From the NCBI RefSeq assembly GCF_024662235.1, contig NZ_CP096276.1, forward strand, positions 1,798,001 to 1,862,000: a DNA stretch of 64,000 nt. Reading direction: 5' to 3'. A program made the position numbers and the translations under genes. A model generated the notes under the pieces. The model worked only from the letters and a program-made list of their open reading frames with translations. It had not been told where the DNA came from and searched no databases. The stretch comes from Pimelobacter simplex. GTDB lineage: Bacteria; Actinomycetota; Actinomycetes; Propionibacteriales; Nocardioidaceae. Every line of letters starts with the position of its first letter. Position 1 is the stretch's first letter. This document shows, piece by piece, positions 2,234 through 47,010 of the stretch.

Positions 2234-2298
2234 TGCGATTGGTCAGAGACTGCAGCGACACGCCGGTGGGACTTGCGGTTTGGGACCAAACCGCAAGT
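2234..2298. repeat. Composite palindromic repeat, unit 1
   Basis: The left half (2234-2255, TGCGATTGGTCAGAGACTGC) is a degenerate palindrome. The right half (2271-2298) is near-perfect: arms ACTTGCGGTTTGG and CCAAACCGCAAGT around a two-base centre GA. The TTGG cores of the halves lie 41 bp apart (2239 and 2280). The right half abuts the galK stop codon and sits between convergent genes, so one role could be bidirectional transcription termination, although no T-run follows. Five related units occur in this window. Confidence 0.9.
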
Positions 2299-3300
2299 TC
2301 AGGCCGGCGCCGCGATGAGGCGCGCGCCCACCGCGGGCAGGACGACGCGGTGGGCGGGCGCGTCCCACCCGGCGGCGCCGTAGGCGCCGTCGATCGCCGC
2401 GCGCACCGCGGCGACCCCGGTCTCCGGGACCAGCGCGATGGTGCACCCGCCGAACCCGCCGCCGGTGAGCCGGGCGCCGAGCGCGCCCGAGCCGATCGCC
2501 GCGTCGACGGCGGCGTCGAGCTGGGGGAGCGAGACCTCGAAGTCCTCGCGCAGCGACACGTGCGAGGCGGTCATCAGCAGACCGAGCCCGGGCCAGTCCC
2601 CGGCTGCGATCGCCGCGACGGCCGAGCCGACCCGGGCGTCCTCGGTCGTCACGTGCCGCAGCCGGCGAACGTCGCCCGCCGCGCACTCGCGCCGGCGTTG
2701 CGCGTACCCGCCGTCCCCGTCGGCGAGCACGTGCCGGACCCCGCTGTCGGTGACCAGGATCGTCAGCCCGGCCGCGGCCAGCGGCAGCGGTACGTCGCGC
2801 ACCCGGGGGTCCGCGGGATCCGCGAAGTCGATCAGCAGCGCGCCGCCTGCGCTGCCGAGCATGCTGGCGAGCTGGTCCATGCCGCCGGTCGGCGCTCCGA
2901 CGTGCTCGGTCTCGGCGCGGCGGCACGCCTCGGCGATCCGGCGCCGGCCCGGCCGGTCCAGCGGCTGGCCGAGCAGCCCGGCGATCGCCACGGCGACCGA
3001 GCACTCGAGTGCGGCCGAGCTGGACAGCCCGCCGCCGATCGGCAGGTCGGTCGTGACGGCGACGTCGAGGCCGGGGACGTCCCACCCGGCCTCCCGCAGC
3101 GCCCAGACGACGCCCGCGACGTACCCGGTGGCGTCGGCGTCCCCGCTGCCCTCCACCACCAGTGCGGCGTCGTCACGGACCGTGACGGTCGCGGTGGTGG
3201 CGAGCGGGATCGCGAACGGCAGGCAGCGCCCGCCGTTGTAGTCGGTGTGCTCGCCGATCAGGTTCACCCGGCCCGGAGCCGTGGCGGTCGCTGAGGTCAC
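2299..3300 (-). CDS. galK: Galactokinase
   Basis: A GHMP-family kinase of about 333 residues that would phosphorylate galactose to galactose-1-phosphate in the Leloir pathway. The galactokinase signature GRVNLIGEHTDYNGG lies at the N-terminus, the ATP-binding motif PIGGGLSSSAALE around residue 90, and the third GHMP motif GGGFGGC near the C-terminus. I prefer the GTG at 3300: it follows a GAGGATGG ribosome-binding stretch and a TAGCGG -10-like box. A GTG at 3318 would add six residues. No galT or galE is adjacent. It is divergent from the nucleosidase-like gene, and the two -10 boxes overlap at 3322-3331. Confidence 0.93.
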   Translation of the reverse strand: MTSATATAPGRVNLIGEHTDYNGGRCLPFAIPLATTATVTVRDDAALVVEGSGDADATGYVAGVVWALREAGWDVPGLDVAVTTDLPIGGGLSSSAALECSVAVAIAGLLGQPLDRPGRRRIAEACRRAETEHVGAPTGGMDQLASMLGSAGGALLIDFADPADPRVRDVPLPLAAAGLTILVTDSGVRHVLADGDGGYAQRRRECAAGDVRRLRHVTTEDARVGSAVAAIAAGDWPGLGLLMTASHVSLREDFEVSLPQLDAAVDAAIGSGALGARLTGGGFGGCTIALVPETGVAAVRAAIDGAYGAAGWDAPAHRVVLPAVGARLIAAPA

Positions 3301-3337
3301 CCGCCCATCCTCGCCCACCGGCCGCTAGCGTGACGCC

Positions 3338-3922
3338 GTGCCTCGTCCCCTCATCGTCGCCGCGGCCCGTGCCGAGGTCGCCCACGTCCCGGCCGGGCTC
3401 GACGTCGTCGTCACCGGCATCGGCAAGACCGCCGCCGCGACCGCGCTGACCCGGCACCTCGCCGGCCGTTCCGACCTCGACGACCTGGTCGTCGTCAACC
3501 TCGGCACCGCGGGCGCCCTGCACGACGGGCTCGACGGGCTCGACGGGCTCGACGGGCTCGACGGCGAGCATGGCCTCCACGAGATCGGGACCGTGCTCAA
3601 CCACGACATCAACGGCGACGCGATCCGGGCGCTCGGCTACGACCCGCGCGACCGGCTCGTGATCGGGGAGAGCCCGACCGTCCTGGCCACCGGCGACGTC
3701 TTCGTCACCGACCCGGTCGTCCGGACCCGGCTCGCCGAGCGGGCGCAGCTCGTCGACATGGAGGGCTACGCCGTCGCGTACGTCGCCCAGGAGTTCGGCG
3801 TCGCGCTGCGGATGGTCAAGCACGTCTCCGACAACGCCGACGAGGGCGCGATGGAGTGGGCCGCGCTGGTCGACCGCAGCGCCCGGGTCCTGGGGGAGTG
3901 GGCGGCGACCCACCTGGGCTGA
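3338..3922 (+). CDS. Nucleoside phosphorylase / MTA-SAH nucleosidase-like protein
   Basis: A 194-residue member of the PNP/UDP phosphorylase fold, which cleaves the N-glycosidic bond of nucleosides. The family hallmarks are VDMEGYAVAYVA (the ME..A ribose-contact motif) near residue 140 and VKHVSDNADE (catalytic Asp region) near residue 160. It is shorter than typical MTAN (about 230), so the substrate is uncertain. A GTG start follows a TAGCGT box at 3326-3331 by six bases, indicating a leaderless transcript. An in-frame run of GLD tripeptides, encoded by a 9-bp tandem repeat, lies around residues 63-74. Confidence 0.75.
   Translation: MPRPLIVAAARAEVAHVPAGLDVVVTGIGKTAAATALTRHLAGRSDLDDLVVVNLGTAGALHDGLDGLDGLDGLDGEHGLHEIGTVLNHDINGDAIRALGYDPRDRLVIGESPTVLATGDVFVTDPVVRTRLAERAQLVDMEGYAVAYVAQEFGVALRMVKHVSDNADEGAMEWAALVDRSARVLGEWAATHLG
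3524..3559 (+). repeat. In-frame 9-bp tandem repeat (4 copies)
   Basis: Four perfect tandem copies of GACGGGCTC, followed by a partial fifth, encode consecutive Asp-Gly-Leu units inside the nucleosidase-like gene. The unit length is a multiple of three, so copy-number change would keep the frame and only lengthen a surface loop. Confidence 0.95.
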
Positions 3923-3928
3923 CCGCCG

Positions 3929-4522
3929 TCAGCGGCTGCTGGAGGCCCGCCGGCCGCGCACCACGCCCACGAAGTCCTGGTGGACCGGGCTGTCGGCCTC
4001 GCGCGGCCACAGCAGCGCCACCGTCGTCGGGGGCAGGTCGACCGGACGGGTGACCACGTCCTTGCGGTGGTGCAGGCGCGCCAGCGACATCGGCACGATC
4101 ACCACCCCGGTGCCCGACGAGGCGACCTCGATCGCGTCCTTGACCGTCATCGGCGGGAACGGCAGCTGCTCGGCAGCCGGCGTCCACCCGGACGGGTGGG
4201 GGAGCACGAGCTGCTCGTCGGCGAGCTCGGCGAGGTCGAGCGGCGCGTCGGACTCGGCGGCGGCCACGAAGTGCTCGCGCCCGGCGACGACGACGGGCTG
4301 CTCGTCGTACAGGCGGACGCAGTGGAGGGGCGTCGGCGCCTCGAGGTCGACCGGCAGCCGGGCCAGGACGAGGTCGGCGGTGCCGTCGTCGAGCACGGCG
4401 CGGCCGGCGTCCTCCTCGATCGGCAGCAGCCGCAGCGGCAGGCGCGGGTGACGCTCGCGCCACACCCGGGCCCACTTGTCGGGCGTCACTCCGGGGACGA
4501 AGGCGACACGCAGCTCTTGCAT
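3929..4522 (-). CDS. LysR-type substrate-binding domain protein without HTH
   Basis: A 197-residue protein resembling only the effector-binding domain of LysR regulators: an opening beta-strand MQELRVAFVPGVTPDKW, a central DLVLARLP segment, and VASSGTGVVIVPMSLARL near residue 140, typical of the second lobe. The N-terminal winged helix-turn-helix is absent, and no such domain is encoded in frame upstream, because the gene begins shortly after a GATCGT -10-like box. It could bind a small ligand or act as a dominant partner of a full-length LysR protein. Its function is unknown. It lies downstream of the HesB-like gene on the same strand. Confidence 0.7.
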   Translation of the reverse strand: MQELRVAFVPGVTPDKWARVWRERHPRLPLRLLPIEEDAGRAVLDDGTADLVLARLPVDLEAPTPLHCVRLYDEQPVVVAGREHFVAAAESDAPLDLAELADEQLVLPHPSGWTPAAEQLPFPPMTVKDAIEVASSGTGVVIVPMSLARLHHRKDVVTRPVDLPPTTVALLWPREADSPVHQDFVGVVRGRRASSSR

Positions 4523-4568
4523 GCCCCCACGATCCCAGAAGCGACGCCCGAGCGTGGCTTCGGCGTCG

Positions 4569-4844
4569 CTAGGCCTGCGCGAGCAGGCCGAACTGCAACG
4601 CCCCCTGGTCGTCGACCCCGGCGTCGAGGGTCATCTCGCCGAGCTGGTCGGCGGCTCCCGCATCGAGGTAGACGGTCGCGCCGTCCTGCACCACCATCTC
4701 GTCACCCGCCTCGGGCTGGGCCGTCGCGGTGACGGCGAAGCCGGTGTCGACCTGCGTGATCCGCAGGCCCGCGGTGTCCGGAGCGTCGGGGATGTCGGTC
4801 ATCTGCTTGACGATCGTGCATGCGTTCTCAGTCAGGGTGAGCAT
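4569..4844 (-). CDS. HesB/IscA-fold protein lacking the cysteine triad
   Basis: A 91-residue protein with the length and beta-rich layout of A-type iron-sulfur carriers (opening MLTLTENACTIVKQM, then a VYLDAGAADQLGEMTLD region). IscA/ErpA proteins bind Fe-S clusters through one Cys plus a C-terminal CGC. Here the only Cys is residue 9 and the C-terminus (QGALQFGLLAQA) has none, so cluster transfer by the usual mechanism is unlikely. Similar cysteine-less relatives are known in actinobacteria without an assigned role. A GAGAAGG ribosome-binding site precedes the ATG. Confidence 0.7.
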   Translation of the reverse strand: MLTLTENACTIVKQMTDIPDAPDTAGLRITQVDTGFAVTATAQPEAGDEMVVQDGATVYLDAGAADQLGEMTLDAGVDDQGALQFGLLAQA

Positions 4845-4963
4845 GGCTTGCCTTCTCGGTTGAGGTCAGAGACCTCACCCACCGTGGCACGCGGACCAGG
4901 CTCGATCAAGGCGTGCGGATGCCCAGGAGGGGTGCCGATGCGGCATCTCGGGCCAGCCTTTGC

Positions 4964-4969
4964 TACGGT
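4964..4969 (+). promoter_or_regulatory. -10 box of tRNA-Leu gene
   Basis: TACGGT lies 13 bases before the mature 5' end of the tRNA, a normal distance for transcription start plus a short 5' leader removed by RNase P. Confidence 0.5.
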
Positions 4970-4982
4970 TTCACCCGCACTC

Positions 4983-5068
4983 GTCCGGGTGGCGGAATTG
5001 GCAGACGCGCTAGCTTGAGGTGCTAGTGCCCGTATTAGGGCGTGGGGGTTCAAGTCCCCCCTCGGACA
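4983..5068 (+). tRNA. tRNA-Leu (anticodon GAG)
   Basis: An 86-nt class II tRNA. The acceptor stem GTCCGGG pairs with CTCGGAC (one G-T), with discriminator A at 5068. The D-arm contains GGCAGAC, the anticodon stem-loop is CTAGCTTGAGGTGCTAG with anticodon GAG, a long variable arm (TGCCCGTATTAGGGCGT) is typical of leucine tRNAs, and the T-arm is GGGGGTTCAAGTCCCCC. The 3' CCA is not encoded. It would read CUC and, by wobble, CUU leucine codons. Confidence 0.97.
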
Positions 5069-5077
5069 CAGAAAAGC

Positions 5078-5107
5078 CAGAACGGCGGCCCTCGGGCCGC
5101 CGTTCTG
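5078..5107 (+). terminator. Hairpin terminator of tRNA-Leu
   Basis: A GC-rich inverted repeat with arms CAGAACGGCGGCC and GGCCGCCGTTCTG lies ten bases after the tRNA end. There is no strong T-run (only TTCTGCGTTG), as is usual in high-GC actinobacteria. Confidence 0.7.
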
Positions 5108-5132
5108 CGTTGCTGGCCCGACGGCTCGATTC

Positions 5133-5330
5133 CTAGCGCAGGTGGCCGAGCCCGCGGTACAGGTCGAGCTCGACCCGCACCTGCGCCGGGAGCGGTGCGC
5201 CGGAGCGCTGATCGTGGCGGCGTACTCCTCGAGCGCGGCGACCAGCCGGCGGCGGAAGGGGCGGGCCGAGGAGACCTCGGCCCGGCAGGCGCCCAGCAAC
5301 GCGCGCTCGTGGCGCGGTGCGCACGGGTGC
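5133..5330 (-). pseudogene. Frameshifted gene remnant
   Basis: On the minus strand a protein-like stretch with strong GC3 codon use reads ERALLGACRAEVSSARPF and on to ALEEYAATIS, then continues as sense only after a shift into another frame, LPAQVRVELDLYRGLGHLR, ending at a TAG (5133-5135). No start codon or full domain is present. I read it as the C-terminal remnant of a decayed gene; I do not recognise the family. A sequencing error that splits a short real gene is the alternative. Confidence 0.35.
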
Positions 5331-5349
5331 GCAGGGGGTGCCGACGCCT

Positions 5350-5817
5350 CTACCGCACGCCGGTCCCCACGATCCGCACCTCGCCCGCGGTCCGCAGCCG
5401 CACCTCCAGCACCCGACTCGCGAACCGCCACCCCGCGTCCGTACGCCGGTAGCGGTCCCGGTAGACGACGTGCCAGGTGTCGTCCCGGCCCCCGCCGTCG
5501 CGCTCGAACGCGTGGTGCGCGACGCAGGCGACCCGGCCGGTCGCCTCGTCGGGGGAAACGGCGTCGAAGACGGTGCCGACCACGGCGTGCACGGTGACGG
5601 GCAGGCGGTGGACCGCGCCGAGGGCGGTGGTGATGGCGTCGAGGCTGTCGTGGGTGGCGGTGCCGGGGGAGCGGCCGGGGTCGACCGGGGCGGTCATGGT
5701 GGCGTCGGAGGTGAAGAGGGCGACGACGGCGTCGAGGTCGCGGTCGTCGACGCCGGCGGCGTAGCGGTGGACGAGGTCGGCGAGCGCGAGGTGGTCGGCG
5801 GGGGAGAGCGACGTCAT
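5350..5817 (-). CDS. NTF2-like (SnoaL/ring-hydroxylating beta-type) protein
   Basis: A 155-residue small alpha+beta-barrel protein. The opening LSPADHLALADLVHRYAAGVDDRDLDAVVALFTSDATM is the characteristic N-terminal helix pair of SnoaL-4/NTF2-like proteins, followed by VHAVVGTVFD and a WHVVYRDRYRRTDAGWRFA strand pair. Such proteins act as ketosteroid isomerases, dehydratases or non-enzymatic binders; the substrate here is unknown. The ATG at 5817 is favoured over 5835 because a minus-strand TAGCCT box ends seven bases before it (leaderless start). Confidence 0.8.
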   Translation of the reverse strand: MTSLSPADHLALADLVHRYAAGVDDRDLDAVVALFTSDATMTAPVDPGRSPGTATHDSLDAITTALGAVHRLPVTVHAVVGTVFDAVSPDEATGRVACVAHHAFERDGGGRDDTWHVVYRDRYRRTDAGWRFASRVLEVRLRTAGEVRIVGTGVR

Positions 5818-5882
5818 GGGCCGAAGGCTAGACATGTAGCACAGGTGCACGCCGCCGTCTTCCGGCCAGCGGGATCGGCCGC

Positions 5883-6049
5883 TATCGTGGACGCCGCACA
5901 CGCAGAGGCCTCTGATCTTTCAGTTTTTCTGAAAGGTGCCCTGCAGAACTCCTCGATGGACGCACCTGTGGCCGCGACCACAGACTCCCTTCCTGAGATC
6001 CAAGCCGCGGTCCCGATCGATCGGGACCGCCTCACAGGAAGCGCGATCT
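5883..6049 (+). promoter_or_regulatory. Hairpin-rich leader of the oligopeptide transporter operon
   Basis: A TATCGT -10-like box at 5883-5888 is followed by about 155 nt of untranslated leader, long for this window. It holds three inverted repeats: CTTTCAG-TTTTT-CTGAAAG at 5917-5935, TGTGG-CCGCGA-CCACA at 5967-5982, and a perfect 24-bp palindrome at 6007-6030 whose arm is GCGGTCCCGATC. The palindrome ends just before the AGGAAG ribosome-binding site. It could be an attenuator or an operator; I recognise no riboswitch class. Confidence 0.55.
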
Positions 6050-7753
6050 ATGGCGAAACGATCCCGGAGAGTGGTGCCCGTCGGGCTCGCCCTCGTCCTG
6101 GCCCTCGCGGTGGCCGGCTGCAATGCCAACTCCTCGTCGAGCGACTCGACCAAGGACAAGAACACGTCGGCGATGGAGTCCGTGCCCCAGGGCGGGACGC
6201 TCCACTACCTCTCCCGCAAGGCGACGGAGTCCTTCGAGACCGCCAACGCGCAGATGGTGCCGACCAGCCGGCTGCGGTGGGAGCACCGCGGGCTGACGTC
6301 GTGGCAGACGTTCCCCGACAAGGACACGATCCTGGTCCCGGACCTCGCCAAGGACACCGGTACGACCGACGACGGCGGCAAGACCTGGACCTTCGAGCTG
6401 CAGGACGGCCTGAAGTTCTCCGACGGCAGCCCGATCACGGCCCAGGACGTCAAGTACGGCATCGAGCGGTCGTTCGCGCCGATGTTCCAGGGCGGCCTCG
6501 GTTACCACAAGACCCTGCTCGAGGGCGGTGCCGACTACGACGGCCCGTACGACGGCAAGGAGCTCGACTCCATCGAGGTCGTCGACGAGCACAAGATCGT
6601 CTTTCACCTGACCCGCCCGTTCGGCAACTGGCCGTGGATCGTGAGCATGCCGGCGTTCGCGCCCGTGCCGAAGGCGGCCGACACCCAGCCCGAGACGTAC
6701 GGCGAGAAGCCGGTCGCGAGCGGCCCGTACATGGTGACGAGCTTCAGCAAGGGCACCCAGGCCGTGCTGGAGCGCAACCCGAACTGGAAGGCGGACACCG
6801 ACCAGGCCCGCCTGGCCGGCCCGGACAAGATCATCCTCGACATGGGGCTGAACAACGACACGATCGTGCAGCGCCTCATCGACGACAAGGGCGACGACAA
6901 GAACGCGATCAGCAACGCGCTCATCTCGCCCTCGCAGTTCCAGCGCATCGAGTCCGACGCGTCGATCTCGGACCGGCTGGCCAACGGCCCCTCGGGCTAC
7001 TTCCGCTACCTCGCGATGAACGTGAAGCGGCCGGGTCTCTCCGACCTCCGGGTGCGCCAGGCGATCAACTACGCGATCAACAAGTCCGAGATCCAGAGCG
7101 TGTACGGCGGCCCGAAGTTCGGTGGTCAGATCACCTCGTCGATCATGACCGAGGGCATCCCCGGCGCCACCGACTACGACCTGTACCCGGGCGGCGACAC
7201 CGGTGACGTCGAGAAGGCCAAGGAGCTGCTCGACGAGGCCGGCGTGAAGAACCTCAAGCTCACGCTGACCTACCCGACCGACGTCAGCGCGATCGAGGAG
7301 AAGGAGGCGCTGAGCGTCAAGAACTCGCTCAAGCGGGTCGGCATCGACGTCGAGCTCAAGGGTCTCGACGGCAGCACCTGGTACGAGCTGATCTCGGACG
7401 CCAAGGGTGACTACGACCTGACCACGAACGGCTGGGGCGCCGACTTCCCGAGCGGCATGAGCACCATCCAGCCGCTCTTCGCCTCGAGCGAGATCGGCAA
7501 CGGCGGCGGCAACGCCTCGCAGTACTCCAACCCCGAGGTGGACGCGGCGATCGACGCCGCGATCTCCGAGCCCGACCTCGACAAGGCCGCCGAGATGTGG
7601 GCCGCGATCGACAAGCAGATCATGGAGGACGCCCCGATCGTCCCGTTCCTCGTGCAGCGCACGCAGGCACTGGCCGGATCGAACATCCTGAACTACTTCA
7701 TGCCCGCCTACCCGCCGTTCGCGAACGAGCTGGTCGTCGGTGTCGATCACTGA
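6050..7753 (+). CDS. Peptide/oligopeptide ABC transporter substrate-binding lipoprotein
   Basis: A 567-residue family 5 extracellular solute-binding protein (DppA/OppA type) that would capture peptides outside the membrane. A positively charged n-region MAKRSRR is followed by a hydrophobic stretch and lipobox AVAGC, so Cys24 is the lipidation site. The body has the family pattern WTFELQDGLKFSDGSPITAQDVKYGIERS around residue 120 and LRVRQAINYAINKSEI around 335. The ATG at 6050 follows AGGAAG; an upstream in-frame extension would run through the leader hairpins and is not credible. It is the first gene of a five-gene transporter operon and overlaps the next gene by 14 bases. Confidence 0.95.
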   Translation: MAKRSRRVVPVGLALVLALAVAGCNANSSSSDSTKDKNTSAMESVPQGGTLHYLSRKATESFETANAQMVPTSRLRWEHRGLTSWQTFPDKDTILVPDLAKDTGTTDDGGKTWTFELQDGLKFSDGSPITAQDVKYGIERSFAPMFQGGLGYHKTLLEGGADYDGPYDGKELDSIEVVDEHKIVFHLTRPFGNWPWIVSMPAFAPVPKAADTQPETYGEKPVASGPYMVTSFSKGTQAVLERNPNWKADTDQARLAGPDKIILDMGLNNDTIVQRLIDDKGDDKNAISNALISPSQFQRIESDASISDRLANGPSGYFRYLAMNVKRPGLSDLRVRQAINYAINKSEIQSVYGGPKFGGQITSSIMTEGIPGATDYDLYPGGDTGDVEKAKELLDEAGVKNLKLTLTYPTDVSAIEEKEALSVKNSLKRVGIDVELKGLDGSTWYELISDAKGDYDLTTNGWGADFPSGMSTIQPLFASSEIGNGGGNASQYSNPEVDAAIDAAISEPDLDKAAEMWAAIDKQIMEDAPIVPFLVQRTQALAGSNILNYFMPAYPPFANELVVGVDH

Positions 7754-8669
7754 GATCGAGCAGGCGGAGGGCCGGCGCACGTCGGTCCTCCGCCGCTTCC
7801 TCCGCAAGAAGTCCGGCGTCGCCGGGCTGGTGATGCTCGTCGTGCCGCTGGTCGCGGGGCTCTGCGCCCCGCTGCTGGTCCGGCTCGAGGGCCAGGACCC
7901 GCACACGTTCCACACCGACCTGCTCGACCCGGACGGCGGGCGCCCGCTCGGCGCCCTCGGCGGCGTCAGCGCCGACCACTGGCTGGGCGTCGTCCCGGTC
8001 ACCGGCGTCGACCTGTTCGCGCAGATCGTGTACGGCATCCGCTCCTCGCTGTTCATCGCGTTCGGCGCGAGCATCCTGGCGATCGTCTTCGCGGCGGTCC
8101 TGGGCACGGCGATGGGGTACTTCGGCGGCTGGCTCAATGCCGTCGCCGGCCGGCTGATCGACTTCATGTTCGGCTTCCCGGGCCTGATGTTCGTCATCGC
8201 GATCATGGCGATCGTGCCGGCGGAGATGCCCCGTGGGCTGGTGCTCGTGCTGGTCCTGGCATTCTTCGGCTGGACCGTGCCCGCCCGGATCATCGGCGCC
8301 CAGGCCGGTGCGATCAACGCCCGCGCCTTCGTCGAGGCCGCCCGCGCCACCGGGGCCCCGCCCTGGCAGATCATCCGGCGCGAGATGCTCCCGCACCTCT
8401 TCGGCCTGGTCGTCGTCCTGTTCGCGATGTCGCTGCCCGGCAACGTCAGCGTCGTCGCGGGCCTGTCCTTCCTCGGCGTCGGCATGCGTGGCGACGTGCC
8501 CGACCTCGGCAAGCTGCTCTCCGACTCCCTGCCGTGGATCTACTCCGGCGCGGACGTCTGGTACATGCTCTTCCCCGGCGCCGTGGTGTTCCTGATCGTC
8601 TTCGGCGCCACGCTCGCCGGTGACGCGCTCCGCGACGTCCTCGACGTCCGTACGGAGGATGCCTCGTGA
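7740..8669 (+). CDS. Peptide ABC transporter permease (DppC type)
   Basis: A 309-residue inner-membrane permease. An N-terminal transmembrane helix (GVAGLVMLVVPLVAGLCAPLL) precedes a periplasmic loop with HWLGVVPVTGVDLFAQIVYGIRSS, the DppC/OppC signature, and then the BPD_transp_1 core. The EAA loop FVEAARATGAPPWQIIRREMLPH around residue 200 contacts the ATPases. The GTG start at 7740 lies inside the end of the binding-protein gene. Unusually, the C-type permease precedes the B-type in this operon; most dpp/opp operons have B before C. Confidence 0.93.
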   Translation: MSITEIEQAEGRRTSVLRRFLRKKSGVAGLVMLVVPLVAGLCAPLLVRLEGQDPHTFHTDLLDPDGGRPLGALGGVSADHWLGVVPVTGVDLFAQIVYGIRSSLFIAFGASILAIVFAAVLGTAMGYFGGWLNAVAGRLIDFMFGFPGLMFVIAIMAIVPAEMPRGLVLVLVLAFFGWTVPARIIGAQAGAINARAFVEAARATGAPPWQIIRREMLPHLFGLVVVLFAMSLPGNVSVVAGLSFLGVGMRGDVPDLGKLLSDSLPWIYSGADVWYMLFPGAVVFLIVFGATLAGDALRDVLDVRTEDAS

Positions 8670-9644
8670 TCGCCTACATCGTCCGACGCATGGTCACCGC
8701 GGTGTTCATGCTCCTCGCGATCGCCTTCGTGACGATCGCCCTGTTCTTCGGTGCCTCCAAGGACCCGGCCCGCGCCATGTGCGGCAAGCCGTGCCCGGAG
8801 GAGACCAAGGCCAAGGTCAGTGCCTACATGCAGACCGACGAGAGCGTCGTGTGGCAGTACGGCCAGTTCGTCAAGGGGCTGGTCGCCGGCCGCACCTACG
8901 GCGAGGGCTCGCAGCAGGTGGACTGCGCGGCGCCGTGCTTCGGCTACTCGTTCCCCAACCGCAGCGACGTCACGACGCTCATCGGCGAGCGGCTGCCCGT
9001 CACGCTGTCGCTGGCCGCGGGCGCCGCGGTGCTCTGCCTGGTCGTCGGGATCGGGCTCGGCGCGCTCTCGGCGATCCGAAGAGGCGGGCTGGTCGACAGG
9101 TTCTCGACCGGCTTCGCGATGTTCGGGCTGTCGGTGCCGACCTTCCTGGTGGGCCTGCTCGTCGTGCAGGTGTTCGGCTTCATGCTCAACGCCCTGCCGT
9201 ACTCCGGCTTCGTCTCGTTCTCGGAGTCACCGGCCGACTGGGCCTGGCACCTGATCGGCCCGTGGATGGTGCTGTCGTTCATCCTCGCCGCGGGCTACAT
9301 CCGGGTCACCCGGACCCAGCTCCTCAACGAGCTCTCGGCCGAGCACCTCGTCGCGATGACCGCGCGCGGGGCCTCGCCCCGGCAGGTCAACCGGCACGCC
9401 GTGCGCGGCGTGATGGTGCCGGTGGTGGCGATGTTCGCGCTCGACGTGACCGCGCTGCTGGGCGGCTCGGTGATCGCGGAGAAGGTCTTCAGCCTCCACG
9501 GGCTCGGCGACCTGCTGCTCTCCGGCGTCAACGAGTCCGACCTCAGCATCGTCGTCGGGGTGACCCTGTTCTCCGCCTTCCTCATCATCGTCGGCAACCT
9601 GATCGCCGACCTGCTGATGCCGCTTCTCGACCCGAGGATCCGCC

Positions 9645-9652
<8 letters not shown>
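8666..9652 (+). CDS. Peptide ABC transporter permease (DppB type)
   Basis: A 328-residue permease that begins YIVRRMVTAVFMLLAIAFVTIALFF, the standard first helix of DppB/OppB. It has a periplasmic domain containing several cysteines (MCGKPC and CAAPCF), then TTLIGERLPVTLSLA and an EAA-like loop MTARGASPRQVNRHAVRG around residue 235. The GTG start overlaps the previous stop (GTGA). The four periplasmic cysteines could form disulfides and are not general to the family. Confidence 0.93.
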
Positions 9653-10663
<1,011 letters not shown>

Positions 10664-10667
<4 letters not shown>

Positions 10668-11458: not shown

Positions 11459-11506
11459 CCCTGCCCGACCTTCGCGCGACCGCTGCACGACGCCGACCGG
11501 CCGTGC

Positions 11507-11531
11507 CACGATCAGCACCATGACGCACTGA
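11507..11531 (+). promoter_or_regulatory. Possible leaderless promoter with three-codon ORF
   Basis: CACGAT at 11507-11512 is followed seven bases later by ATG ACG CAC TGA (11520-11531), a Met-Thr-His minimal ORF. Its stop is followed by a purine-rich AAAGAGAAAGAAGAG tract and the GTG of the hydrolase gene at 11548. It may be a leaderless mini-ORF feeding ribosomes to the downstream start. Confidence 0.35.
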
Positions 11532-11547
11532 AAGAGAAAGAAGAGAC

Positions 11548-13384: not shown

Positions 13385-13539
13385 GGTAGGGGGATCCGCG
13401 AGGCGGGACCGGGGTACTGCCGATGCTAGCGCTTCCGGACCGGTCCCGGCGGGCTGCTCGGGACCTCTGATTCATGTCTCTCAGGCATAAGTGACCTCGC
13501 AAGTGGTCATTGGACGCATAGTCCGCGGGTCCTGAGGAT

Positions 13540-13644: not shown

Positions 13645-13646
13645 CG

Positions 13647-17033: not shown

Positions 17034-17045
17034 CACCATCGGAGG

Positions 17046-24535: not shown

Positions 24536-24598
24536 CGCGGTTTGGTCCCAAACCGCATGTCTGCACGGCGTGTCGTTGCGGTTTGGGACCAAACCGCA
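24536..24598. repeat. Composite palindromic repeat, unit 2
   Basis: Two near-perfect palindromes lie in opposite orientation: left half 24537-24556 (centre TC) and right half 24577-24598 (centre GA). Each has the arms GCGGTTTGG/CCAAACCGC. Their TTGG cores are 41 bp apart, and the 20-bp spacer is unrelated to other units. It lies between the convergent M20 peptidase and DUF5703 genes and fills nearly the whole gap, four bases from both stops. Confidence 0.93.
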
Positions 24599-31519: not shown

Positions 31520-31657
31520 CCCGCCGCGGCGAGGACGCCAGCCGCTGCGGCAGTCGAGCGGTGGTTAGCGCACCCAGCGGCCCGAACGGCGCCGCCCCCG
31601 GCGGTGACCACGGTGACGGACGGCCGCCGGCGTGGGCGCCCTAGCCGCGGAACGCGT

Positions 31658-31721
31658 TGCAATTGGGCACGAACCGCACACGACGGGCCCGAATTTCTGC
31701 GGTTTGGGACCAAACCGCAGA
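31658..31721. repeat. Composite palindromic repeat, unit 3
   Basis: The left half 31658-31678 (TGCAATTGGGCACGAACCGC) is degenerate. The right half 31696-31721 has arms TCTGCGGTTTGG/CCAAACCGCAGA around GA. The core-to-core distance is 41 bp (31663 and 31704). It lies in the 224-bp gap between convergent mshC and the PAC2 gene. The rest of that gap (31520-31657) is GC-rich without a convincing gene. Confidence 0.92.
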
Positions 31722-32592: not shown

Positions 32593-32620
32593 TCTGCGAG
32601 CCTAGTCGGCTCCGACGAAG

Positions 32621-32626: not shown

Positions 32627-32632
32627 CGGCAG

Positions 32633-32712: not shown

Positions 32713-32729
32713 CACGGAAGGATTGGTGC

Positions 32730-36512
<3,783 letters not shown>

Positions 36513-36540
36513 GCCGGCGCGGGGCTCCTAGGCTGGGTGG

Positions 36541-38077: not shown

Positions 38078-38128
38078 GCGTTCGACACTAGGGCAGGGCT
38101 CCGACAGCGGGCCGGATAGCCTCGGAGT

Positions 38129-39265: not shown

Positions 39266-39298
39266 GCGCCCGCGCGGGCCTCCCGGTAGATTGCGCCG

Positions 39299-40240: not shown

Positions 40241-40251
40241 CGCGGATGCTT

Positions 40252-40315
40252 TGCGGTTTGGTCCCAAACCGCAGCGTTTCGGGCTCCGGACATGCGGTTT
40301 GGGACCAAACCGCAT
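40252..40315. repeat. Composite palindromic repeat, unit 4
   Basis: Left half 40252-40273 (arms TGCGGTTTGG/CCAAACCGCA, centre TC) and right half 40292-40315 (arms ATGCGGTTTGG/CCAAACCGCAT, centre GA) are perfect palindromes of opposite polarity, with TTGG cores 41 bp apart (40258 and 40299). The unit sits between co-directional trmI and arc, so it is not limited to convergent gene pairs. Confidence 0.94.
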
Positions 40316-40347
40316 CAATCACCGCCGCGTTGCGCCCTGCCGCCGAG

Positions 40348-40353
40348 TAGGGT
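40348..40353 (+). promoter_or_regulatory. -10 box upstream of arc
   Basis: TAGGGT, about 19 bases before the arc ATG, with an AGGAGGTG ribosome-binding site in between. This is a conventional leadered promoter, unlike most genes around it. Confidence 0.5.
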
Positions 40354-40372
40354 CGTTTCCAGGAGGTGTGCC

Positions 40373-42136
40373 ATGACGAGCATGGGAGAAGGCACTTCGG
40401 GGAGCCACCGCTCTCGGAGCCGCGAGGAGCTCGAGGAGCAGGTCCGCTACCTCGAGGACGAGGTCCACGACCTGCGCCGCCGCCTGGTCGACACGCCCGG
40501 AGCTCCGTCGAGATCGCTGGACATGCGGCTCGCGGACGCCCAGCGGTCGCTCGCGGCGGTCACCGCGCAGAACGAGCGCCTGGCCACGACCCTGCGCGAC
40601 GCGCGGGACCAGATCATGAAGCTGAAGGAGGAGGTCGACCGGCTGGCGCAGCCGCCGGCGGGCTTCGGCACCTTCCTCCAGCGCAACGAGGACGACTCGG
40701 TCGACGTGTTCACCGGCGGCCGCAAGCTGCGGGTCACCGTGAGCCCGGCGGTCGACCTCGACACGCTGCAGCGCGGCCAGGAGGTCATGCTCAACGAGGC
40801 GCTCAACGTGGTCGCCGCGTTCGAGTTCGAGAACGTCGGTGACGTGGTCATGTTCAAGGAGCTCCTCGCCGACGGCGAGCGGGTCCTGGTGATCGCCAAC
40901 GCCGACGAGGAGCGCGTCGTACGGCTGGCCGAGCCGCTGCTCACCGAGACGCTTCGGGCCGGCGACTCGCTGCTGCTCGACGCCCGCGCCGGCTACGCGT
41001 ACGAGAAGGTCCCGAAGTCCGAGGTCGAGGAGCTCGTCCTCGAAGAGGTCCCCGACATCACCTACGAGACCATCGGCGGCCTGGGCAACCAGATCGAGAT
41101 GATCCAGGACGCCGTCGAGCTGCCCTACCTCTACCCCGAGCTGTTCGCCGAGCACGAGCTCAAGCCGCCCAAGGGCATCCTGCTCTACGGCCCTCCGGGC
41201 TGCGGCAAGACGCTCATCGCCAAGGCGGTCGCCAACTCGCTGGCCAAGAAGGTCGCGGCCAAGACGGGCCAGGAGGGCAAGTCCTTCTTCCTCAACATCA
41301 AGGGCCCCGAGCTCCTCAACAAGTACGTCGGCGAGACCGAGCGCCACATCCGCCTGGTCTTCCAGCGGGCTCGCGAGAAGGCCAGCACCGGCACACCGGT
41401 CATCGTGTTCTTCGACGAGATGGACTCCCTGTTCCGCACCCGCGGCTCGGGCGTCTCCTCCGACGTCGAGAACACGATCGTCCCGCAGCTGCTCAGCGAG
41501 ATCGACGGCGTCGAGCTGCTCGAGAACGTCCTGGTCATCGGCGCCTCCAACCGCGAGGACATGATCGACCCGGCGATCCTGCGCCCCGGTCGCCTCGACG
41601 TGAAGATCAAGATCGAGCGCCCCGACGCCGAGTCGGCACGCGACATCTTCAGCAAGTACCTCACCGCCAACCTGCCGCTGCACACCGAGGACCTCGCCGA
41701 GTTCGGCGGCGACCGCCAGGCGACCGTCAGCGGCATGATCCGCGCGGCGGTCGAGCGGATGTACTCCGAGACCGAGGAGAACCGCTTCCTCGAGGTCACC
41801 TACGCCAACGGTGACAAGGAGGTCCTCTACTTCAAGGACTTCAACTCCGGCGCGATGATCCAGAACATCGTCGACCGGGCCAAGAAGACCGCGATCAAGG
41901 ACTTCCTCGACCACGACCAGAAGGGGCTGCGGATCTCGCACCTCCTCCAGGCGTGCGTCGACGAGTTCAAGGAGAACGAGGACCTGCCCAACACGACCAA
42001 CCCCGACGACTGGGCGCGGATCTCGGGCAAGAAGGGCGAGCGGATCGTGTTCATCCGCACGCTCATCACCGGCAAGCAGGGCACCGAGCCCGGCCGCTCC
42101 ATCGACACGGTCAGCGACACGGGCCAGTACCTCTGA
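40373..42136 (+). CDS. arc: Proteasome-associated AAA ATPase ARC/Mpa
   Basis: A 587-residue hexameric unfoldase that recognises pupylated proteins and feeds them to the 20S proteasome. An N-terminal coiled coil ([20 protein letters not shown], about residues 20-75) binds Pup; OB domains follow; the AAA module has Walker A GPPGCGKT near residue 273 and Walker [10 protein letters not shown] near 345. The C-terminus is GQYL, the docking tail for the proteasome alpha ring. The ATG at 40373 is fixed by AGGAGGTG. First gene of the Pup-proteasome locus. Confidence 0.97.
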
Positions 42137-42203
42137 CGCTGACTTGCATGGCTCACCTAGGGTGGGCACCGTCCACCCCCGACAACACCCCGAGGAGTTC
42201 CCC

Positions 42204-42281
42204 GTGGTCAAGAAGCTCGTCATCGTCGCCCTGGTCGCGCTCGGCATCACCGCCGCCGTCAAGGTCGCCAAGGGTCGCTGA
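42204..42281 (+). CDS. Small membrane peptide between arc and dop
   Basis: A 25-codon ORF starting with GTG behind a CGAGGAG ribosome-binding site and ending just before a terminator. The product is a single hydrophobic helix flanked by lysines (VVKKLVIVALVALGITAAV, then KVAKGR). Its placement, ribosome-binding site and amphipathic layout suggest a real small protein. It could sit in the membrane; a role with the proteasome is speculation. Confidence 0.55.
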   Translation: MVKKLVIVALVALGITAAVKVAKGR

Positions 42282-42296
42282 ACCCGATTCATCGCG

Positions 42297-42332
42297 AAAG
42301 GCCCTGACACGGATTCCCGTGTCGGGGCCTTT
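42297..42332 (+). terminator. Intrinsic terminator after arc and small ORF
   Basis: A strong hairpin with arms AAAGGCCCTGACACGG and CCGTGTCGGGGCCTTT around a short ATTC-containing loop, the most canonical terminator in the window. It separates arc from dop, which restarts from its own promoter 4 bases later. Confidence 0.88.
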
Positions 42333-42335
42333 GCG

Positions 42336-42341
42336 TAGGCT
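42336..42341 (+). promoter_or_regulatory. -10 box of leaderless dop
   Basis: TAGGCT, six bases before the dop ATG and immediately downstream of the arc terminator. Confidence 0.6.
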
Positions 42342-42347
42342 GGTGCC

Positions 42348-43856
42348 ATGAGCGTGCGCCGCGTGATGGGCACCGAGGTCGAGTACGGCATCTCGGTCCA
42401 GGGCCAGCCGACCGCCAACCCGATGGTGGCGTCGTCCCAGGTCGTCAACGCCTACGCCACGGCGACCGTGCGGGCGCGGCGGGCGCGGTGGGACTTCGAG
42501 GAGGAGTCGCCGCTGCGTGACGCGCGCGGCTTCGACATGTCGCGCCAGATCGCCGACCCGACCCAGCTCACCGACGAGGACCTGGGGCTGGCCAACGTCA
42601 TCCTCACCAACGGCGCCCGGCTCTACGTCGACCACGCCCACCCGGAGTACTCCACCCCCGAGGTGGTGACCCCCCTCGACATCGTCCGGTGGGACAAGGC
42701 GGGGGAGCAGGTCATGCTCGACGCCGCCCGCCGCGCCCAGCAGCTGCCGGGCAACCCGCAGATCGTGCTCTACAAGAACAACACCGACAACAAGGGCGCC
42801 TCCTACGGCGCCCACGAGAACTACCTGATGCGGCGCTCGACGCCGTTCGGCGACATCGTGCGGCACCTCACGCCGTTCTTCGTCAGCCGCCAGGTGTTCT
42901 GCGGCGCCGGCCGGGTCGGCAAGGGCCAGGACGGGCGGGGCGAGGGCTTCCAGATCAGCCAGCGCGCCGACTTCTTCGAGGTCGAGGTCGGCCTCGAGAC
43001 CACGCTCAAGCGGCCCATCATCAACACCCGCGACGAGCCGCACGCCGATCCCGAGAAGTACCGCCGGCTCCACGTCATCATCGGCGACGCCAACCTCTCC
43101 GAGATCGCCACCTACCTCAAGGTCGGCACCACCTCGCTGGTGCTGGCGATGATCGAGGACCGCTTCATCAGCCGCGACCTGAGCGTCGACGGCCCGGTGG
43201 CGGCGCTGCGGGCGGTCTCCCACGACCCCGGGCTGCGTGAGCTGGTCACCCTGGCCGACGGCCGCAAGCTGACCGGCATCCAGCTCCAGCTGGAGTACCT
43301 CGACCTGGCCAAGAAGTACGTCGAGGACCGCTACGGCGCCGACGCGGACGCCCAGACGGTCGACGTACTGGCCCGCTGGGAGGACGTCCTGGCCCGGCTC
43401 GAGTCCGACCCGATGTCGCTGGCCGACCAGCTCGACTGGGTCGCCAAGCTCAAGCTGATCGAGCAGTACCGCTCGCGCGACGGGCTGGGCTGGAAGGACG
43501 CCAAGCTCCAGCTCATCGACTACCAGTACTCCGACATCCGCCCCGAGAAGGGCCTCTACCACCGCCTCGTCGGGGCCGGCCGGATCCAGCGGCTGCTCAC
43601 CGACGACGAGGTCGACGCCGCGATGACCAACCCGCCGGCCGAGACCCGCGCCTACTTCCGCGGCCGCTGCCTGGAGAAGTACGCGCCCGACATCGCCGCG
43701 GCGTCGTGGGACTCGGTCATCTTCGACCTGCCCGGACGCGAGTCCCTGCAGCGCGTGCCCACCATCGACCCGCTGCGCGGCAGCAAGGCCCACGTGGGCG
43801 CGCTGATCGACAAGTGCGCGACGGCTGACGAGTTGGTCCGCGCGCTCACCCGTTGA
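42348..43856 (+). CDS. dop: Depupylase/deamidase Dop
   Basis: A 502-residue glutamine-synthetase-like enzyme that removes Pup from proteins and, in species with Pup-Gln, deamidates Pup. The N-terminal GTEVEYGIS carries the metal-binding Glu, and the catalytic Asp corresponds to Asp95 in [17 protein letters not shown] Dop-specific insert replaces the short loop of PafA after [13 protein letters not shown]. Because Pup here already ends in Glu, only depupylation is needed. Leaderless start; pup follows after 17 bases with its own -10. Confidence 0.97.
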
Positions 43857-43861
43857 GTGGA

Positions 43862-43867
43862 TAGGGT
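43862..43867 (+). promoter_or_regulatory. -10 box of pup
   Basis: TAGGGT, six bases before the pup ATG, giving a leaderless pup-prcB-prcA transcript in addition to any read-through from dop. Confidence 0.6.
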
Positions 43868-43873
43868 TGGGAC

Positions 43874-44071
43874 ATGGCTCAGGAGCAGAAGCAGCCGCGC
43901 AAGTCCGACGAGACCGAGGAGACCACCGAGGTCGCCCCCGAGAGCGACGTCGCCGAGCGCAAGGAGTCGCTCGACGACGACGTCGACGCGATCCTCGACG
44001 AGATCGACGACGTCCTCGAGACCAACGCCGAGGACTTCGTGAAGTCGTTCATCCAGAAGGGCGGCGAGTAG
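43874..44071 (+). CDS. pup: Prokaryotic ubiquitin-like protein Pup
   Basis: A 65-residue intrinsically disordered protein tag. It begins [19 protein letters not shown], has the acidic helical binding region [17 protein letters not shown] and ends [11 protein letters not shown]. The C-terminal residue is Glu, so Pup is made ready for ligation, unlike the Gln form of mycobacteria that Dop must deamidate. prcB starts six bases after its stop. Confidence 0.98.
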
Positions 44072-44077
44072 CCCCCG

Positions 44078-44941
44078 ATGAGCGACGCGCGCATCCCGGG
44101 CGCCTTCCTGCGCCCGGGCACCTCCTCGTTCAGCGACTTCCTCGCCGAGAACGCCCCCGACCTGCTCCCCGCCCGCCGCTCGCTGCCCGCCGGCAGCCCC
44201 GGTGCGGCCGCCGACCTCGCCCCCCACGGGACGACGATCGTCGCGCTGACCTTCCCCGGTGGCGTGGTGATGGCCGGGGACCGGCGCGCGACGATGGGCA
44301 ACGTCATCGCCCAGCGCGACATCGAGAAGGTCTTCCCGGCCGACGAGTACTCCGTGGTCGGCATCGCCGGCACCGCCGGTCTCGCGGTCGAGATGGTCCG
44401 GCTGTTCCAGGTCGAGCTCGAGCACTACGAGAAGATCGAGGGCTCGATCCTCTCCCTCGACGGCAAGGCCAACCGGCTCTCCGCGCTGATCCGCGCCAAC
44501 CTCGCCATGGCGATGCAGGGGCTGGCCGTCGTCCCGATGTTCGCCGGCTACGACCTCGACAGCGGCACCGGCCGGATCTTCGGCTACGACGTGACCGGCG
44601 GCCGGCACGAGGAGGCGGCGTTCTTCACCGTCGGCTCGGGCTCGATGTTCGCCCGCGGCGCCCTCAAGAAGCTCTACCGCGACGACCTCTCCGCCGACGA
44701 CGCCGTCCGGGTGTGCCTCCAGGCCCTCTACGACGCCGCCGACGACGACTCCGCCACCGGTGGCCCCGACCTGACCCGCCGGATCTTCCCGGTCGTGTGG
44801 GTGGTCACCGCCGACGGCGGCGTCCGCATCCTCGAGGACCGGATCGGCGCCCTCGCCGACCAGGTCGTCGGCGCCCGCCTGCAGCGTCCCGACGGACCCG
44901 TCGCCCCGCTGCCCGGCGGGGGAGAGGAGGCTCAGGCATGA
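44078..44941 (+). CDS. prcB: 20S proteasome beta subunit
   Basis: A 287-residue Ntn hydrolase precursor. An N-terminal propeptide of 51 residues ends at HG before Thr52 (TTIVALTF), the catalytic nucleophile released by autoprocessing; the Asp and Lys partners appear in [11 protein letters not shown] and RDIEKVF. It forms the inner beta rings of the proteasome. It overlaps prcA by ATGA, which ensures balanced alpha and beta synthesis. Confidence 0.97.
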
Positions 44942-45828
44942 GCACCCCGTTCTACGTCTCGCCCGAGCAGCTGATGAAGGACCGGGCCGACTTCGCCCGC
45001 AAGGGCATCGCCCGCGGCCGCTCCCTCGTCGCCGTCCAGTACGCCGACGGCGTCCTCCTGGTCACCGAGAACCCCTCGCAGGCCCTGCACAAGGTCTCCG
45101 AGCTCTACGACCGCCTCGCGTTCGCCGCGGTCGGCCGCTACAACGAGTTCGAGAACCTCCGCATCGCCGGGGTCCGCCTCGCCGACATGCGCGGCTACGC
45201 CTACGACCGGCGCGACGTCACCGGCCGCGGCCTGGCCAACGCCTACGCCCAGACCCTCGGCACGATCTTCTCCTCGGGCGGCGAGAAGCCCTACGAGGTC
45301 GAGATCTTCGTCGCCGAGGTCGGCGCCACCGCCGCCGACGACCAGATCTACCGGCTGACCTACGAGGGCCGGGTCGCCGACGAGCACGGCTACGCGGTGA
45401 TGGGCGGTGACGCTGAGACCGTGACGTCGTACCTTGAGGCGCACTACACCGACGGCGCCACCCTCGACGCCGCCCTGCGCGTCGCGGTGGCCGCGCTCGG
45501 CCACACCGCCGTCGGCGGAAAGGTCGAGGACCGGGTGATCCCGGTCGGCGACCTCGAGGTCGCCGTCCTCGACCGCACCCGCACCCAGCCGCGCAAGTTC
45601 CGCCGGGTCCTCCCGGCCCGCCTCGAGGAGCTTCTCGGCGACCGCGGCCCGGCCGAGCACGCCGCCCCGCTGCCCGACGACGGCGTCGGCGGCTCCGTGC
45701 CCGCCGGTGGCGGCCCCGACGACCCGGCCGACCCGACCGACCAGGTCTCCGGCCACGTCGCGCCGCTCGAGGACCCGGGCACCGGCGAGCCGTCGTCCGG
45801 CGAGCCGCCGGTGGCGCCGCCGCTCTAG
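44938..45828 (+). CDS. prcA: 20S proteasome alpha subunit
   Basis: A 296-residue alpha-ring subunit that gates the proteasome and receives the ARC C-terminus. It opens [20 protein letters not shown] (gate and H0 helix) and contains the alpha-type [18 protein letters not shown]. After about residue 230 there is an extra, low-complexity acidic/proline tail of some 60 residues ([24 protein letters not shown]) not needed for the fold. Instead of leading directly to pafA, prcA is followed by repeat unit 5 and a foreign-looking gene. Confidence 0.96.
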
Positions 45829-45855
45829 TCGCGGACCGGGTGCCGGGTGCCGGGT

Positions 45856-45921
45856 TGCTGCGGTTTGGGACCAAACCGCAGCAGTTCGGCCTCTTGCTGC
45901 TGCAGTCTCTGCCCAATCAGC
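45856..45921. repeat. Composite palindromic repeat, unit 5 (inverted relative to unit 6)
   Basis: Here the near-perfect half comes first: 45856-45883, arms TGCTGCGGTTTGG/CCAAACCGCAGCA around GA. The degenerate half follows in reverse at 45900-45921 (CTGCAGTCTCTGCCCAATC). The matching cores are 42 bp apart, one more than in other units. Read on the minus strand, the order of halves equals that of units 1, 3 and 6. It lies between prcA and the DUF559-like gene, with the degenerate half facing that gene. Confidence 0.88.
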
Positions 45922-45938
45922 GCGCAGATCGTCGTGTT

Positions 45939-46973
45939 GTGCGACTGCTGTCCACAGCCTCACCGGTCGAACTTGATCTCCAAACGTCGTACGCCAACTC
46001 TGTCCGGATGGAAGTTGGGCCCGACGGTGCTATCCGCGGCGAGGTGCGCATCGCGGGGCATCAGCGCGTCTCTCACGGTCTCTACCGTCCGGAAACGCCT
46101 GAGCTCGGCACGCGGGCCAACTTCTTGCGCGACCTGAGCGCGCTGCTCCTGGTCCTGCCTGAAGGCGCTGTCTTCACCCACGTCACCGCTGCGCGTCTCC
46201 TCGGATGGCAGCTGCCGGCCTTGCCGCGGGACGTGCCACACTTCGCGGCCGTTCGCGGTGAGCGTCGTCCTCGACGGCCCGCCGTCATCTGCTCCCGGCT
46301 GACACGGGAGTCGGCCGCGGGTGTCGTGGACGGCCTTCCCATCGACCACCCATCAGAGATCCTGCTTCGGGCGGCGCGCGACCTCGGCGATCTCGACTTG
46401 GCACTCATGGTCGACTCGGCTGTGCGGCTCGGTCACATTGACGAGGCGGCGATGCACGACGTTCTTGCATCGCGACGCCCAGGCACGAAGCGCCTGCGCT
46501 GGGTGTGGGAGGGTCGCGATCCGCTGGCGGAGTCTGCTGGCGAGACTCTCCTTCGGAAGTTCCACGACGTCATGGATGTCGCGACCGAGTCGCAGGTCGA
46601 CGTTCATGACGAACATGGACGATTCATCGGCCGTGCGGATCTGCTCGTGGTCGGCACCTTGAACGTCCACGAGTACGACGGAGCAGTTCACCGCGAGGCG
46701 GCGACGCACAAGCGCGATCTCCGTCGGGAGCGTGCGCTGGCAAGCTCGTCGTACGTTCGCCGCGGCTACACGCTTGACGACCTGCTGAACCACGCCGCGA
46801 TCCTGATGCACGAGATCGACCGGGCGCTGGGGCGGCCGCATCAGGCGGAGCGGCTCCGGAAGTGGCGCGCGCTGGTGGACGATTCGTTCTACTCGGATGT
46901 AGGGAGCGCGCGGGTGATGAACCGCTGGTACCGCTCAACCAACCCGGTCGATTGGGCACGAACTGCAGGTTGA
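45939..46973 (+). CDS. DUF559/AbiEi-like nuclease-fold protein, probable insertion
   Basis: About 344 residues from a GTG at 45939; an in-frame ATG at 45840 would force translation through repeat unit 5 and is disfavoured. The N-terminal part resembles AbiEi-type proteins (VSHGLYRPETPELG, then VLPEGAVFTHVTAARLLGW), and the C-terminal part resembles DUF559/PD-(D/E)XK folds (AESAGETLLRKF, FIGRADLLVV, NVHEYDGAVHRE, then RDLRRERALA). Codons end in A/T far more often than in neighbouring genes (GAT, GAA, TCT, CTT), a sign of transfer. It separates prcA from pafA and is bracketed by repeat units 5 and 6 in opposite orientation. The last codons overlap unit 6. Function unknown. Confidence 0.75.
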   Translation: MRLLSTASPVELDLQTSYANSVRMEVGPDGAIRGEVRIAGHQRVSHGLYRPETPELGTRANFLRDLSALLLVLPEGAVFTHVTAARLLGWQLPALPRDVPHFAAVRGERRPRRPAVICSRLTRESAAGVVDGLPIDHPSEILLRAARDLGDLDLALMVDSAVRLGHIDEAAMHDVLASRRPGTKRLRWVWEGRDPLAESAGETLLRKFHDVMDVATESQVDVHDEHGRFIGRADLLVVGTLNVHEYDGAVHREAATHKRDLRRERALASSSYVRRGYTLDDLLNHAAILMHEIDRALGRPHQAERLRKWRALVDDSFYSDVGSARVMNRWYRSTNPVDWARTAG

Positions 46974-47010
46974 TCCCCTGAATTGATGTGGTTTGGGACC
47001 AAACCGCGTC
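46948..47010. repeat. Composite palindromic repeat, unit 6
   Basis: The left, degenerate half (46948-46967, GATTGGGCACGAACTGC) lies inside the end of the DUF559-like gene, just before its stop. The right half (46985-47010) has arms GATGTGGTTTGG/CCAAACCGCGTC around GA, in which two pairs are G-T wobbles. Cores are 41 bp apart (46952 and 46993). The pafA promoter follows 40 bases downstream. Confidence 0.9.

Follow-up and report, generated by a model that had tools for sequence, protein, structure and literature searches.

A family of two-armed palindromic repeats and the nuclease-like gene that they bracket in Pimelobacter simplex and other Nocardioides genomes

Repeat units and the bracketed gene

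The 64,000-nucleotide stretch analyzed here (the window) spans bases 1,798,001 to 1,862,000 of the 6.09-Mb chromosome of Pimelobacter simplex (genome G000) and contains six copies of a two-part palindromic repeat, two of which bracket a single gene predicted to code for a nuclease-like protein. All six units were recovered at the positions reported in an earlier note on this DNA. The core GCGGTTTGG-NN-CCAAACCGC, with up to three mismatches, has eight matches in the window compared with 0.02 expected from dinucleotide shuffles. When a partner half at 40–42 bp is also required, all of the window matches fall on cores of the six units and ten windows in which single bases had been shuffled in 100-bp blocks give none, at a threshold loose enough that a perfect core with a weak partner passes.

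The two halves of each unit are related, as had been proposed, but only one type is a true palindrome. Half type A is a perfect palindrome, TGCGGTTTGG-NN-CCAAACCGCA, with a 2-nt centre, and folds strongly; half type B, approximately TGCAGTTCGTGCCCAATCG, is related to A but is poorly palindromic. Units 2 and 4 are of the form A-A, and units 1, 3, 5, and 6 are A-B. A best-partner scan bears out the reported distances between cores, with 42 bp in unit 5 and 41 bp in each of the others. The spacers had been described as sharing nothing, but by eye a TTCGGG-like stretch is present in many of them and they are therefore not unrelated; in genome G029 the spacer is often a small palindrome itself (for example, TTTCGG-N-CCGAAA).

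Units 5 and 6 enclose a gene at 46008–46973 on the plus strand, which the earlier note did not mention, coding for 321 amino acids from an ATG at 46008 (the longest open reading frame [ORF] begins at 45840). Unit 5 (45856–45921, plus strand; A core 45859–45880, B half approximately 45901–45922) lies 5′ of this gene, and unit 6 (46948–47010, minus strand; B half approximately 46946–46967, A core 46987–47008, 41-bp spacing) overlaps its 3′ end, such that the last codons (C-terminal DWARTA) constitute the B half and the stop codon lies inside the spacer. Proteasome subunit genes are located upstream, and unit 6 is followed by a Pup-ligase-family ORF at 47062, which is the next gene downstream; no DUF1814 nucleotidyltransferase toxin gene is adjacent.

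The other four units are dispersed through the window. Unit 1 (2234–2298, minus strand; B half approximately 2233–2254, A core 2274–2295), unit 2 (24536–24598; A cores 24536–24557 and 24577–24598), and unit 3 (31658–31721, minus strand; B half approximately 31657–31678, A core 31698–31719) have 41-bp spacing and convergent ORFs around them. Unit 4 (40252–40315; A cores 40252–40273 and 40293–40314, also 41 bp apart) is at the start of a proteasomal ATPase ORF. A confinement to gene ends thus applies in part: by our reading of the ORFs, units 1 to 3 have convergent genes on either side, and units 4 to 6 have same-strand genes. Pfam matches between 40292 and 48423 identify the proteasomal ATPase, two Pup-ligase-family genes, and a proteasome subunit gene, a group that is interrupted by the nuclease-like gene.

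The predicted protein

The predicted protein appears to join an AbiEi-like middle domain to a Vsr-like PD-(D/E)XK nuclease domain. This reading of the fold rests on VIA alignments, in which the protein model was matched to I-Bth0305I/Vsr and to AbiEi; in Foldseek the single match with an E-value of 0.001 or below is an R2 retrotransposon protein (TM 0.24), and I-Bth0305I follows at an E-value of 0.0085. Residues E179, Q196, D211, E222, D224, and H228 are invariant among 48 homologs. The model shows the Vsr-like PD-(D/E)XK fold and the conserved acidic residues of the Vsr and EDxHD superfamily, together with an AbiEi-fold domain. None of the 48 homologs has a Pfam match at an E-value of 0.01, the window protein having one sub-threshold match (FliG_M, 0.049); it has no NCBIfam match, and sequence searches with it found no relative of known structure (best E-value 0.35).

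Distribution, spacing, and spelling of the repeats

The core is present at 23 places in the whole G000 genome with up to three mismatches, of which those at G000:C1:1892297 and C3:45260 were judged to be chance matches. Two distant A cores, at C1 3723127 and 4862188, have the common neighbouring sequence GGAGGTAAGACCA, possibly promoters. Among 215 Nocardioides genomes the core with at most one mismatch occurs in 39, and a wider pattern, designed after the variants beside the gene had been seen, has at least one match in 67 and none in 148, with 1 to 79 matches per repeat-carrying genome; its reversed control gives five matches over all 215 genomes. Carriers among the matches listed include Nocardioides carbamazepini, N. 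daeguensis, N. immobilis, P. simplex 3E, and Nocardioides sp. TF02-7.

The fixed spacing extends well beyond the window. In eight genomes (with G029 and G049 represented by the matches listed), 108 of 109 distances of up to 60 bp between neighbouring cores are 40–42 bp (exactly 41 bp for 99 of these), and a second core is found at 40–42 bp from 192 of the 295 cores; neither random spacing nor a prevalence of isolated palindromes, the outcomes named beforehand as speaking against a defined family, was seen. A number of the cores that have no A partner have a degenerate B half instead. In TF02-7 as many as six cores follow one another at 41-bp steps, and other arrays have a period of about 92 bp.

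Throughout the genus the gene has units at its flanks, and its final codons contain the B half. The spelling of the palindrome differs by lineage, and the scattered copies are spelled like those at the gene, as with CGTTTGGTCCCCAACG in G079 and G134, and CGTTTGGTCACCAACG in G035. Genomes G079 and G134, which are mostly 87–95% identical, were compared at ten A-A and four A-B sites in matching places. At the ten A-A sites the cores are 96–98% identical, the spacers 75%, and the flanks 59–72%, the spacer and flank values being low estimates from an ungapped comparison. Selection for binding could leave the cores better conserved in this way, and so could the copying of one repeat from another. 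At a few sites the two genomes do not agree; for example, that at 1969624 in G079 has no listed counterpart in G134.

Away from the gene, 32 A-B matches are co-directional with replication and 12 are opposed, with G132 reversed (two versus five), in a count that includes tandem copies, sites common to G079 and G134, and some units of the A-A form that were counted as A-B. Two exact spellings of the repeat gave no match in viral contigs, and a search of plasmids with protein P0001 gave none.

Co-occurrence of repeats and gene

Repeats and gene tend to occur in the same genomes. Fifty-eight of the 215 genomes contain both, 149 contain neither, five contain repeats only, and three the gene only, where an ortholog has at least 46% identity over most of the protein (61 genomes) and the repeats-only class asks for at least two repeat matches. 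The ortholog line was drawn after the list had been seen, and 52 further genomes, from the 113 with matches, have weaker or fragmentary ones and were scored as having no ortholog. Accepting a single repeat match raises the repeats-only class to nine, and demanding five raises the gene-only class to nine. With the first, narrower pattern, 33 of the 39 repeat genomes have the gene, the exceptions being G004, G013, G163, G166, G170, and G171.

The five repeats-only genomes are G013, which is complete, and G126, G166, G170, and G171, which are 69–87% complete; G170 has a gene fragment. Of those with the gene only, G176 and G185 have a palindrome-like sequence of another spelling at the gene, and the gene locus of G199 is not readable with the motif used. 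The prcA-pafA gap of G013 lacks the gene but still contains a perfect palindrome, TGCTGCGGTTCGG-GC-CGAACCGCAGCA, with matching changes in both arms. An ORF located between prcA and pafA in G013 and in TF02-7 is presumably that of a FAD-dependent oxidoreductase.

Position relative to the gene and to the replication terminus

In the first six genomes the repeats surround the position opposite dnaA, closely grouped in G013, G029, and G037 and more loosely so in G000, G054, and G063, and a function at the terminus was therefore first suggested. A dif-like site, CGCCGATAASTGACATTATGTC, is found once only in each of 20 out of 20 genomes of the genus with up to two mismatches; in G000 it is at C1:1885720–1885741, 24 kb past the window end, and the window is at the replication terminus. 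The gene lies 31–59 kb from dif in 11 of 12 genomes, and in these 12 genomes, leaving out the loci at the gene itself, 61 repeat loci are within 25 kb of the gene compared with 20 within 25 kb of dif.

The twelfth genome, that of TF02-7 (G158), separates the two. Here the gene is at 2.218 Mb, 2.1 Mb from dif, and the proteasome (prcBA) and pafA sequences are still beside dif, at 4.27–4.31 Mb. The 78 repeat matches merge to 24 loci; 19 of these are no more than 110 kb from the gene, and dif has none within that distance. Alignment of 180 kb around the TF02-7 gene with the terminus stretches of G000, G037, and G029 recovers the gene of about 880 bp (in G037 and G029) and otherwise only two single matches at 68% identity. 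The protein falls inside the ortholog clade, with support of 100/99 for the clade and moderate support within it. The gene has either moved, or was lost and then re-acquired elsewhere, and either way the repeats sit where the gene is. Terminus-organizing sites were rejected as the leading explanation on the strength of the dif positions, the gene-centred counts, and TF02-7. Matches to the DnaA C-terminal DNA-binding domain, two or three in tandem, were seen in ORFs at G000:C2:17594–18451 and G000:C1:2372814–2373350.

Related genes with inverted repeats of their own

A survey of 341 genomes of the family found orthologs with at least 46% identity in no genus other than that of the window. More distant relatives were read at 27 genes, comprising 20 of the same genus (37–44% identity) and seven further homologs (41–45%), two from the same genus and five from four other genera. 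A search for near-perfect palindromes at the 20 genes yielded mostly terminator-like ones, with one two-armed unit visible, and we considered using these genes as a negative control for the bracket; this was rejected when an inverted-repeat search found two-armed units there. Units of this kind (44–70 bp) are present on at least one side of 20 of the 27 genes compared with 13 of 236 controls, and on both sides of ten compared with none of 236. The repeats at the two ends share at least ten identical bases in 11 of the 27 genes and in none of 219 controls, and the arm sequences differ between genes.

Seven of the 27 genes have no inverted-repeat unit. Copies elsewhere were sought around ten of the related genes (80 kb each, one arm per gene), and nine have none apart from one 3-mismatch match in G062. 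The exception is G100, with a tandem array 29 kb from its gene: at G100:C1:3184650–3185399 five copies of a repeat that carries the arm of the related nuclease gene lie about 187 bp apart. The unit counts and the 80-kb readings together indicate that the bracket is common, and that scattering is, as far as tested, special to the window's lineage.

Interpretation

We propose, with a probability of about 70%, that the units are two-armed recognition sites for the bracketed AbiEi/Vsr-like nuclease, and that REPIN-like copies of them have spread mainly near its gene. The parent element would be the gene together with its two end units. Its protein would bind the arms, probably as one dimer per palindrome, side by side, the nuclease domain would nick or cut near them, and repair or strand transfer would copy a unit nearby; lone copies, both A-B and symmetrical A-A, would have multiplied in the manner of REPINs in intergenic gaps, mostly no more than about 100 kb from the gene. 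Comparison of the genomes shows the bracket, the joint occurrence, the constant 41-bp geometry, a spelling that changes in parallel with the gene lineage, and a cluster that accompanies the gene where it has another position; from these and the predicted protein we infer binding, cutting, and movement. Because a 22-bp arm and a 19-bp gap are combined with an AbiEi-like domain, the unit is a plausible AbiEi-type site for the encoded protein, and recognition by a dimer of dimers would fit the parallel with AbiEi operators. The predicted nuclease-like domain suggests nicking or cutting, and the local crowding fits a protein acting near its place of synthesis, or repair copying from near neighbours.

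Several observations weigh against this proposal, beyond its reliance on inferred binding, cutting, and movement. G013 keeps repeats without the gene, and the co-occurrence is inflated both by shared ancestry and by the history of the wider pattern. No clean insertion boundary or target duplication was found, G000 and G013 being too diverged between genes for such boundaries to be defined. The repeats are not gene-centred in G063, where the median is nearer to dif, or in G077, where there is no difference. The TF02-7 genome is rated 70% complete, and the tree branches near its protein are moderately supported in a bootstrap that had not settled. The N-terminus of the protein model is without a complete winged helix, residues 1–34 forming only short strands and one 3-residue helix and being barely covered in the fold comparison. 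The related genes without units, or without copies elsewhere, count on the same side.

The units could alternatively be operators of the AbiEi type, through which the protein represses its own and nearby genes and nothing moves. AbiEi and Rv2827c bind paired 23-bp inverted repeats (PMC7319586), one unit does lie upstream of the gene, and at common sites the cores are better conserved than the spacers. An equal unit placed right behind the gene or at its stop codon is harder to accommodate, as are three window units located between convergent ORFs and not in promoters, and the presence of up to 79 matches per genome and of tandem arrays; we consider repression as the whole explanation to be unlikely. 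A role in organizing the terminus, such as that of matS/MatP sites or of a fork trap, would agree with the clustering opposite dnaA and the proximity of gene and dif in most genomes, but is made highly improbable by TF02-7, by the excess of loci close to the gene, and by the many genomes (148) that have no match.

Transcription terminators or two-hairpin RNAs at gene ends would account for the strong folding of the perfect palindrome and for the three units between convergent ORFs. Flank pairing between outer and inner positions 2 to 4 from the core is 0.59, 0.59, and 0.37 compared with shuffled means of 0.35, 0.51, and 0.29 (n=199), although some shuffles reach 0.39 at position 4, and this slight excess fits a longer hairpin or a longer dyad alike. 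Terminators would not be expected to crowd around one gene, to co-occur with it, to differ in sequence between species, or to form a fixed 41-bp pair, however, and no Rfam family was found at the unit positions, the only match in the window at the gathering score being to tRNA (a tRNA gene is at 4983–5068). With weak extra pairing and no T run seen behind the stems, the two-hairpin RNA suggested in the earlier note receives little support, and we think an explanation by terminators or RNAs improbable. REP/REPIN elements of the ordinary kind, mobilized by a RAYT or IS200-type transposase from another locus, would share the outward form of intergenic inverted palindrome pairs and a single-copy gene flanked by them, but Y1_Tnp (PF01797) was found in only one of the 215 genomes (G126, a draft that is 86% complete) by a search whose control was positive in five of 14 known genomes, and we give this explanation scarcely any weight.

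REPINs are the standard example of short palindromic repeats that form a population linked to a nuclease gene present in a single copy. The same arrangement with an unrelated enzyme fold would show that such a partnership of repeat and gene is a general outcome, and would provide Nocardioides, in 214 of whose 215 genomes Y1 transposases were not found, with a repeat-maintaining system of its own. An uncharacterized protein family would also gain candidate DNA targets, since many of these genes are bordered by a site of their own. Local spreading is open to a direct test through the crowding of copies around the parent gene, which recurs where the gene has another position. On a broader view, the AbiEi/Vsr-fused nuclease genes with two-armed units at their ends and lineage-specific arms may constitute a class of mobile elements in several genera of the Nocardioidaceae (the family being inferred from the named genomes), with one Nocardioides lineage showing REPIN-like dispersal near the gene; we put this forward tentatively, at a little under even odds.

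Comparison with known systems

The matS/MatP system of the terminus macrodomain has multiple copies of its site near the terminus, as do the repeats in most of the species examined here, but the latter are palindrome pairs and their cluster goes with the gene and not with dif. Unlike the genes for Vsr endonuclease and EDxHD homing endonucleases such as I-Bth0305I, the gene described here is bracketed by two-armed repeats. No description of such a system was found in the literature searched, from which most subscription journals were out of reach, nor any report of DUF559 with inverted repeats. The inverted repeats bound by AbiEi of Streptococcus agalactiae and by Rv2827c are 23 bp long and paired, with a gap of 3 or 13 bp within the pair (PMC7319586). 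The Pimelobacter units differ in having a 19-bp gap, a further site following the gene, and numerous dispersed copies, and the AbiEi-like domain is followed by a nuclease-like domain, the next gene being of the Pup-ligase family and not a DUF1814 toxin.

The closest similarity is to REPINs and RAYTs, and of the three suggestions in the earlier note a REPIN-like unit is the nearest. Both families consist of many intergenic inverted palindrome pairs at a fixed spacing, both have a single-copy gene flanked by the same repeats, and in both the repeat and the gene co-vary. Clusters of REPINs beside RAYT genes have been reported, and the GI REPINs of SBW25 have a 71-bp spacing (PMC3116915); a term search for actinobacterial names in a paper on tagged REPs (PMC3733652) found none. 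The family described here differs in its 41-bp spacing, in the crowding of copies around the gene, and in a predicted AbiEi/Vsr-like protein in place of the HUH Y1 transposase, and with Y1 transposases not found in 214 of the 215 genomes it falls outside the REPIN/RAYT systems as strictly defined. By arrangement it resembles REPINs and RAYTs and by enzyme it is not a member, and it appears to be a system of mobile repeats that relies on another kind of enzyme than the known systems do.

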